A DNA stretch of 37,362 nt from IMG/VR virus record IMGVR_UViG_3300029922_000173, positions 1 to 37,362 of that record; one strand, given 5' to 3'. The stretch's first letter is position 1; every line of letters begins with the position of its first letter. This document shows, piece after piece, positions 4,950 through 9,542 of the stretch. The notes beneath the pieces were generated by a model. The model was not told the origin of the DNA, did no database searches, and worked only from the letters and a program-made list of their open reading frames with translations. The translations under genes and the position numbers were made by a program. The stretch comes from a virus.

Positions 4950-4967
4950 TTGCAATCGGAGGGTTGA
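4950..4967 (+). repeat. TTGCAATC-type repeat, copy 2
   Basis: TTGCAATCGGAGGGTTGA is the partner of the copy at 4582-4598. It ends 7 bases before the tRNA-like structure. Confidence 0.6.
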
Positions 4968-4973
4968 ATTAAC

Positions 4974-5080
4974 AGTGGATGTGGCGGAATAAGACGCTAA
5001 GAGCAAGACGATGGAACTCTTAGGCCCAGGTGTCCATCCCACATAAGCCGTGCAGGTATGAAACAATCCTGCCATCCACT
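4974..5080 (+). ncRNA. tRNA-like RNA with aberrant loops
   Basis: The sequence folds like a class II tRNA. There is a perfect 7-bp acceptor stem GTGGATG/CATCCAC (4975-4981 with 5073-5079, extended by A4974-T5080). A T-G spacer and a 3-bp D stem GCG/CGC (4984-4986 with 4995-4997) follow. The anticodon-type stem is AAGAG/CTCTT (4999-5003 with 5017-5021; 7 bp if flanks are counted). A variable region of about 30 nt and a 5-bp T stem GCAGG/CCTGC (5052-5056 with 5068-5072) complete it. The loops are wrong for translation: D loop 8 nt without GG, anticodon loop 13 nt, T loop 11 nt (TATGAAACAAT, not TTCGAAT). No CCA is encoded. The 5' half (GATGTGGCGGAA...GACGC) and the T stem resemble tRNA-Leu. It lies 42 bases before the next gene. 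Confidence 0.55.
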
Positions 5081-5089
5081 TATATAGAT

Positions 5090-5406
5090 TTGTCCAGCAG
5101 AGACATAAGAAAGGGAATGACAATGAATGAAGATACACAGGTAGATAATTATGGAGCAGCGCAAACTGAAAGAGATCCTGATTTAAAAAGTTATGTAGGA
5201 ACAAAGATTTTACTTGCAAAGCCTATGTCAAATTCAGAATGGGTAAAAGGTAGAAATCAAGAATCAACAGGTCAAGAAGGATATTTAGTTATATATGATA
5301 ATGGTTATCAAGCATGGAGTCCAAAAGATGTCTTTGACACCCACTATCGTTTATTAACCAATGAAGAAAAACTAGTAATGAGATATTAAAATGTCCTGCT
5401 GGACAA
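5090..5406. repeat. 11-bp inverted repeat flanking a gene
   Basis: TTGTCCAGCAG at 5090-5100 and CTGCTGGACAA at 5396-5406 are perfect inverse copies. They enclose the gene at 5123-5389 with little else. The right copy also forms a small local hairpin (TGTCC-TGCT-GGACA). The repeats could form a long-range stem in the mRNA or mark a cassette boundary. Confidence 0.7.
5123..5389 (+). CDS. Conserved phage protein of the KSYVGTK / SWSPKDVF family
   Basis: ATG 5123 is chosen because the AAAGGG site at 5110-5115 is 7 bases away, whereas the in-frame ATG at 5117 is too close. The 88-residue protein shows the pattern KSYVGTKILLAKPM (residues 22-35), then EGYLVIYDNGYQAWSPKDVFD (split: EGYLVIYDNGY at about 51-61, WSPKDVFD at 64-71), then YRLL. 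This layout is frequent in small phage proteins of unknown function. It follows the tRNA-like RNA and is enclosed by an 11-bp inverted repeat. No enzymatic motif is visible. Confidence 0.7.
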   Translation: MNEDTQVDNYGAAQTERDPDLKSYVGTKILLAKPMSNSEWVKGRNQESTGQEGYLVIYDNGYQAWSPKDVFDTHYRLLTNEEKLVMRY

Positions 5407-8425: not shown

Positions 8426-8595
8426 AGACAAAGTATTGTTCAGAATGTGATCAAGATAAGTCTCTTAAAGAATTTGCATCTCATTCATGGGCAAATGATG
8501 GTAAACAGTCTAAGTGTAAAAAGTGTCGCAATGCTATTAATTTGAAAAGGTATTACGCTCTTAAAGGTAATATGTATGGACAGGAGAGGATATGA
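8422..8595 (+). CDS. Small zinc-ribbon protein of HNH N-terminal type
   Basis: The 57-residue protein has C-x2-C ... C-x2-C: YCSECDQDKSLKEFASHSW, then GKQSKCKKCRNA. This is the zinc-ribbon layout found at the N-terminus of many phage HNH endonucleases and in recombination-endonuclease-VII relatives, but no HNH core follows. It is bounded by ATGA overlaps on both sides, so its translation is locked to the sugar genes. It may be a stand-alone DNA- or RNA-binding ribbon, or the remnant of a homing nuclease. Confidence 0.65.
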   Translation: MKTKYCSECDQDKSLKEFASHSWANDGKQSKCKKCRNAINLKRYYALKGNMYGQERI

Positions 8596-9542
8596 ACGTT
8601 TTAATTACGGGAATTACTGGATCTGGTGGGTCATATCTAGCGGAATATATACTTGAGAATCATCCTGAATGTAATATATTTGGGTTGCATAGGTGGCATT
8701 CAAGTGGTCATTTACATAATATAGAAACGATTAAGGATAAAATAGGGATACTAGAATGTGATCTTTTAGATTTGTCGAGCGTTATAAGAGCATTAAAAAT
8801 AGCTAAACCAGATAAGATATTTCATTTGGCTGCTTTCGCCAATGTACGCAAGTGCTTTGATACTCCCCTAGCGGTGATTAATAATAATATTATGGGGACA
8901 GCCAATCTATTAGAAGGGGTTAGGCTAGAGTGTCCAGAAGTAGTATTGCAGATGTGTAGTACCAGCGAAGTTTATGGAAATCCCCTCACATTCCCTATGC
9001 GAGAAGATCACCCTCTACAACCAGTAAACCCTTATTCAGTTAGTAAATTGGCACAGGAGAGCCTAGCGTATGCTTATCATAAAAGTTGGGGTCTTAAAGT
9101 GGTTACGACAAGAATGTTCGCATATATTAATCCTAGGAGGCATGACCTTTTTGCAACTTCTTTTGCAAGGCAAGTGGTCAAAATCGAGCGTGGATTACAA
9201 GATAGGTTGTATCACGGGAATTTGGACAGTATTCGCACTCTGGTTGACGCTAGGGACGCTATGCGTTCATATTGGATTGCTTCCGAAAAGTGTCCTTACG
9301 GTCAACCTTTTAATATTGGGGGCTCTGATGTTTTATCTGTTGGAGATTTTCTAAATAAACTTATAAAAAAAGCAAAATGTTATATAGAAACTGAGCAAGA
9401 CAAATCATTGCTTCGTCCTGTGGACGTAACTCGCCAAGTCTGCGACACAACCAAATTCGACACCTTAACAGGATTTAAACCAGTGTATTCGCTAGATGAA
9501 TCTATTAATTGGCTTCTTGACGAGTGTAGAAAGGCAAAATGA
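8592..9542 (+). CDS. gmd: GDP-mannose 4,6-dehydratase-like SDR enzyme
   Basis: The 316-residue protein is an extended short-chain dehydrogenase. The nucleotide loop GITGSGGSYLAE has the GxxGxxG spacing (Gly 7, 10, 13). HLAAFANVRKCFDTP and the catalytic STSEVYG (Thr124, Glu126) follow, then YSVSK (Tyr148, Lys152). These, with RRHDLFATSFARQ and the GNLDSIRTLVDARDA stretch, match GDP-mannose 4,6-dehydratases, which make GDP-4-keto-6-deoxymannose. The family normally has RDWGHAKD where this protein has RTLVDARD, so a related NDP-sugar specificity is possible. No partner reductase is in the window. It sits between two glycosyltransferases. Confidence 0.75.
   Translation: MNVLITGITGSGGSYLAEYILENHPECNIFGLHRWHSSGHLHNIETIKDKIGILECDLLDLSSVIRALKIAKPDKIFHLAAFANVRKCFDTPLAVINNNIMGTANLLEGVRLECPEVVLQMCSTSEVYGNPLTFPMREDHPLQPVNPYSVSKLAQESLAYAYHKSWGLKVVTTRMFAYINPRRHDLFATSFARQVVKIERGLQDRLYHGNLDSIRTLVDARDAMRSYWIASEKCPYGQPFNIGGSDVLSVGDFLNKLIKKAKCYIETEQDKSLLRPVDVTRQVCDTTKFDTLTGFKPVYSLDESINWLLDECRKAK

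Follow-up and report, generated by a model that had tools for sequence, protein, structure and literature searches.

A tRNA-shaped cloverleaf is present at positions 4974 to 5080 of an uncharacterised phage record of approximately 37 kb, as judged from its fold and from inspection of its base pairs, and the question is what kind of RNA this cloverleaf represents. The whole stretch of 37,362 nucleotides that was analysed is referred to here as the window, and the cloverleaf with its parts and the 88-aa gene downstream of it are on the plus strand. The acceptor-type stem consists of AGUGGAUG (4974–4981) and CAUCCACU (5073–5080); its pairing is perfect, as the original prediction had stated, but it is 8 bp long and not 7 bp. 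A tRNA-like linker of 2 nt leads to the D-type arm, GCG-GAAUAAGA-CGC (4984–4997), with a 3-bp stem (4984–4986/4995–4997) and a loop of 8 nt in which GG is absent. The anticodon-type arm (4998–5022) has a 6-bp stem, UAAGAG/CUCUUA (4998–5003/5017–5022), within the predicted range of 5 to 7 bp, and a 13-nt loop. Beyond the variable region, the T-type arm, GCAGG-UAUGAAACAAU-CCUGC (5052–5072), with a 5-bp stem (5052–5056/5068–5072) and an 11-nt loop, lies directly against the acceptor strand, and no CCA is encoded at the 3' end. All the stems and loops that had been proposed for this interval, including the variable region, were thus found in tRNA order and spacing.

No tRNA was called by ARAGORN anywhere in the window; RF00005, the tRNA model of Rfam, did not match the element even at an E value of 10. 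The loops also depart from those of a tRNA: the anticodon-type loop is not of 7 nt, the D loop has no G18G19 and the T loop is not of the UUCRANN type. Judged from these sequence features, the element is not a decoding tRNA, and the absence of an RF00005 match is consistent with the non-decoding character assumed for it at the outset. The fold energy was moderately low (z −1.86) and not exceptional. A loose cloverleaf descriptor had the 4974–5080 cloverleaf as its sole match on both strands of the real window; 0.3 matches per strand are expected in dinucleotide-shuffled windows, and the shape alone is therefore no proof. The element rises above chance because of homology, namely to the Rfam family RF01745 (manA RNA) and to a second compact copy in another viral contig, L215.

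When the window was compared with 4227 Rfam families by cmscan, RF01745 was the only match at E values up to 0.5 (32.1 bits, E 9.9e-5). With RF01745 alone, the E value for the window was 2.3e-8; on a 321-base stretch, an E value of 8.5e-7 was obtained. The alignment, from 4962 to 5082, covers the whole model, and the blocks at both ends match well. At the 5' side, GUGGCGGAAUAA (4981–4992) corresponds, with two mismatches, to the conserved manA block GUGaCUGAAUAA that follows the acceptor-type strand, and the D-type arm matches the GUGnCnGAAUAA block. At the 3' side, the GGUAU..A..AAUCC loop of the manA T-type arm is present at 5055–5069, against the acceptor-type strand. The stretch aligned to the 5' hairpin (P1) of manA, GGUUGAAUUAAC (4962–4973), is a weak candidate hairpin of at most 3 to 4 bp, which does not form in the minimum-energy fold. 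The internal manA hairpins of the D-type loop, the anticodon-type arm and the variable arm are deleted in the cmscan alignment, and none appears in the fold. The score falls short of the RF01745 gathering threshold of 55.2 bits because the element measures approximately 108 nt compared with 192 nt and the accessory hairpins are missing. Since the score lies below the curated threshold and these hairpins are absent, the element should not be classed among the full members of manA.

The second compact copy, L215a, came from scanning viral contigs with a sequence pattern; it lies at 9049–9145 on the minus strand of the 53-kb contig L215 (IMGVR_UViG_3300048502_000018). A covariance model built from the window sequence alone recovered L215a at E 2.9e-8 in 261 kb, cmscan independently matched L215a to manA (E 0.0021), and its unaided minimum-energy fold was the same cloverleaf as that of the window element. 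The D arm, GUGGCGGAAUAAGACGC, and the T arm, GCAGGUAUGAAACAAUCCUGC, are identical in the two copies. In the acceptor and anticodon-type stems, 12 pairs are comparable; eight are changed on both sides and still paired, three are unchanged and one is broken. The acceptor-type stem accounts for four double changes and the break among its eight pairs, and in the anticodon-type stem all four comparable pairs are changed on both sides. These counts are independent of a 3-bp helix that is mis-registered in one covariance model, R1 (columns 50–52/75–77). A covariance-model search for compensatory changes, as had been suggested for this fold, returned a homologue with eight such changes against one break. 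Because only two compact copies are known, a formal covariation test is impossible. The original prediction also held that the stems had been kept while every loop changed, as expected of selection for fold and not for decoding. The compensated stems and the absence of a tRNA-model match bear out the first part. Simple drift does not describe the loops, however; the D-arm and T-arm loops show the strongest conservation in the compact element and match manA RNA, whereas the anticodon-type loop (13 nt in the window, 6 nt in L215a) is not conserved. These results demonstrate homology, a common cloverleaf and covariation of the stems between the two copies, and we conclude with high confidence that the element is a compact relative of manA RNA. 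The original prediction had not recognised this kinship, by which the element is a compact variant of an RNA type that was already known.

Further copies were sought in several ways. A first viral pattern (L002–L121) was rejected, as it was too loose and had a T loop one base too long; all of its hits that were read proved to be chance matches. Model R1 run over 100 of these loci gave a best E value of only 0.63, which serves as a negative control. Two further patterns with the same T-loop error returned two identical full-size manA sequences (L126 and L127). A compact pattern had no match in 84,980 genomes, and a compact-form covariance model did not recover full-size manA. Among four relatives of the phage's Sak4-like gene (L131–L134), two of which are short fragments, no copy was found, and phage and plasmid records contained no similar DNA beyond noise. 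A run of R1 over 395 genomes of one phylum, which gave no match, lacked a positive control and is uninformative.

The unconstrained minimum-energy fold of the window element contains a GAUGGA/UCCAUC helix instead of the anticodon-type stem, and enforcing that stem costs only 0.5 kcal/mol. GAUGGA (5010–5015) lies in the anticodon-type loop and UCCAUC (5033–5038) in the variable region, so that, in the folding model, stem and helix could coexist as a pseudoknot. A loop–variable region complementarity is found in both compact copies, GAUGGA/UCCAUC in the window (6 bp, shuffling p 0.035) and UGCAU/AUGCA in L215a (5 bp, p 0.044), and the third loop of the candidate pseudoknot is 10 nt in each. With two sequences, this complementarity is suggestive only, a lead and not a demonstration.

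The element sits between two small genes, and the surrounding genes are on the plus strand. Like manA, it precedes a gene on the same strand, an 88-aa open reading frame (ORF; 5123–5389) that starts 42 nt downstream. A Shine-Dalgarno-like AAAGGG (5110–5115) falls beyond the 3' end of the element, and the predicted fold leaves it unpaired. The ORF was assigned to PHROG 9467/32732/872, all of unknown function, and a search of viral contigs turned up no relative of its product. The association with KSYVGTK-type genes that had been proposed was not borne out, since such a gene is absent downstream of L215a and the 88-aa protein gave no relative in that search. No promoter was found upstream of the element by consensus search. 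The 88-aa gene is flanked by a perfect 11-bp inverted repeat, TTGTCCAGCAG/CTGCTGGACAA (5090–5100 and 5396–5406), the 3' copy of which also contributes to a small hairpin with the appearance of a minus-strand terminator. A nucleotide-sugar epimerase or GDP-mannose 4,6-dehydratase-like gene is located at 8592–9542 among glycosyltransferase-like ORFs; it is mannose-related, yet 3.5 kb away from the RNA element. The terminase and capsid of the phage are less than 30% identical to any record and so do not point to a host.

Downstream of L215a on the same strand, the nearest ORF of at least 50 aa starts approximately 600 nt away. Another tRNA-like element (L215:8782–8926, minus strand) occurs approximately 120 nt downstream of L215a in this gap. 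It has a perfect 7-bp acceptor stem, GGUCUCG/CGAGACC, followed by ACCA, a D arm GUGGCGGAAGAUAGACGC, a T arm CCAAG-UAUCAAAC-CUUGG and a large insert in the anticodon-type arm; its fold z is −2.68, and it matched nothing in Rfam or by ARAGORN. No same-strand ORF of at least 50 aa is present in L215 from 8444 to 9181, which may be a structured-RNA array.

Full-size manA was examined for comparison. Scanning with a T-arm pattern returned 78 viral stretches, and a two-ended manA filter applied to all loci was passed by 68, representing 50 distinct sequences. One alignment of full-size manA, in which two rows carried wrong coordinates, was left out of the analysis. In the phage collection, 39 records had a manA match, each at one place, and all are from cyanophages or marine viruses. 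Four complete cyanophage genomes carry one copy each at four different places, followed by purL, a hypothetical gene, a Nol-like carbamoyltransferase gene and a transaldolase gene, respectively; genes for a single-strand-binding protein, S-adenosylmethionine decarboxylase and a glycosyltransferase follow it at other loci. Ten of the 68 loci have a genuine tRNA gene (Asn, Gly, Asp or Tyr) as the next gene, in nine cases 10 to 12 nt past the core. These manA-then-tRNA loci, on cyanophage contigs, are L138, L141, L144, L149, L161, L174, L184, L199, L200 and L203. A 188-kb contig filed as Nonlabens xiamenensis (L242, NZ_RMVE01000006.1), with manA, PhotoRC-II RNA, a tRNA and a transaldolase gene, looks like cyanophage contamination of a flavobacterial assembly. 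Among the 50 distinct sequences, the T-type loop can pair with the variable-arm loop by complementarity, with covariation between the two (UACAU/AUGUA, UACAG/CUGUA and AAGU/ACUU); a doubtful pseudoknot, which may or may not be this pairing, was marked in manA by Weinberg et al. in 2010 (PMC2864571). From its sequence pattern, the pairing of the two loops would replace the elbow contact of tRNA; it has no clear counterpart in the window or L215a. In a comparison of covariance models, a weak link between manA and the tRNA cloverleaf, together with adjacency to tRNA genes, was dismissed as presumably false (PMC3692125).

What the RNA does is less firmly indicated than what it is. We propose, at about even odds for the statement as a whole, that the element is a transcribed compact manA relative with a tRNA-like fold that serves as a structural module for tRNA-binding or tRNA-processing proteins. 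In this proposal, the element would be a minimal, tRNA-sized manA relative with the four-arm core common to full-size manA. The transcript would fold like a tRNA, with an elbow formed without the usual G18G19/UUC contact, and its shape would be recognised by such proteins. The single copy per genome, the changing neighbours, the tRNA genes among them and the ORF-poor region downstream of L215a count against a single-gene switch and favour a tRNA-shaped module. Genuine tRNA genes directly following full-size manA are hard to reconcile with a gene-specific riboswitch, and the element is probably no metabolite switch for one particular gene.

The closest alternative, which we rate only slightly below the structural module and consider a serious though not the favoured possibility, is that of a cis-acting 5' leader. 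The element would then be the 5' untranslated region of the 88-aa gene, and manA likewise that of its next gene. Such a leader would shield the 5' end of the transcript or tune translation and might do so as a riboswitch, the role originally suggested for manA; both Rfam and Weinberg et al. (PMC2864571) place manA among the cis-regulatory RNAs. The 42 nt to the gene in the window and the distance of mostly 13 to 134 nt by which full-size manA precedes an ORF or tRNA gene in the 68 loci keep this reading alive, and a TATAAT-like box lies 22 to 40 nt upstream of full-size manA in many loci. On the other hand, the genes after manA are unrelated to one another and include tRNA genes, each genome has a single copy, L215a has no close downstream ORF, and the ribosome-binding site in the window is left outside the element and unpaired.

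A former phage tRNA-Leu gene that no longer decodes and instead acts as bait for anticodon nucleases of the host is very unlikely. Apart from the cloverleaf order and spacing of a tRNA, this idea draws on the D arm, which equals tRNA positions 7 to 26 of Escherichia coli leuV (tRNA-Leu(CAG)) once a 3-nt deletion, which takes out GG, is allowed for; the similarity has a p of 0.03 before correction for the eight tRNAs tested, and descent from tRNA-Leu was rejected on these weak statistics. RF00005 does not match, and a variable anticodon-type loop beside conserved D and T arms is the opposite of what an anticodon-nuclease bait needs. A functionless chance cloverleaf, to which the shuffled windows and the fold energy might point, is contradicted by the homology, both to RF01745 (E 2.3e-8) and to L215a, in which the D and T arms are the same and the stem changes compensate, and is extremely improbable.

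If the structural module is extended to the whole family, manA would be an RNA by which phages mimic tRNA, encoded once per genome, with a rebuilt elbow and with the compact form as its minimal working unit, and not a gene-specific cis-regulator or riboswitch; this generalisation is tentative and, as it stands, rather unlikely. In full-size manA, contact between the T-type loop and the variable arm would rebuild the elbow; in the compact form, the anticodon-type loop might do so together with the variable region. Since 2010, manA has stood as a riboswitch candidate without an explanation, and it is known mostly from viruses of cyanobacteria. The element is a natural minimal manA outside T4-like cyanophages, in which the family is stripped to a tRNA-sized cloverleaf. 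It provides a small construct for studies of structure and binding and makes the choice between a riboswitch and a tRNA-like RNA testable. Annotation at the Rfam cut-off misses compact manA relatives in other phages.

Compared with a class II tRNA such as tRNA-Leu, the element has the same cloverleaf order, the 2-nt linker between acceptor and D stems, the 3-bp D stem, the 5-bp T stem abutting the acceptor and a long variable region; it differs in lacking G18G19, in having UAUGAAACAAU in place of UUCRANN and in its 13-nt anticodon-type loop. The wcaG RNA (RF01761), first described together with manA RNA (PMC2864571), is likewise a phage-borne structured RNA of unexplained function, but the Rfam scan gave no match to it in the window. 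The full-size manA RNA differs from the element in its length (192 nt compared with approximately 108 nt), in its D-loop hairpin, the GGUGGU/ACCA hairpins of its anticodon-type arm and its variable-arm hairpin, all missing from the element, and in its acceptor stem (5 bp in the Rfam model, 8 bp in the element); furthermore, the phage that carries the element is not a T4-like cyanophage. Both RNAs are phage-borne and located upstream of a gene, both carry the GUGnCnGAAUAA block and the GGUAU..A..AAUCC T-type arm, and in both the acceptor-type stem abuts the T-type stem and the anticodon-type helix occupies the same place. The element very probably shares its ancestry and working principle with manA, and its compact form suggests that the core of the manA family is a tRNA-like cloverleaf.
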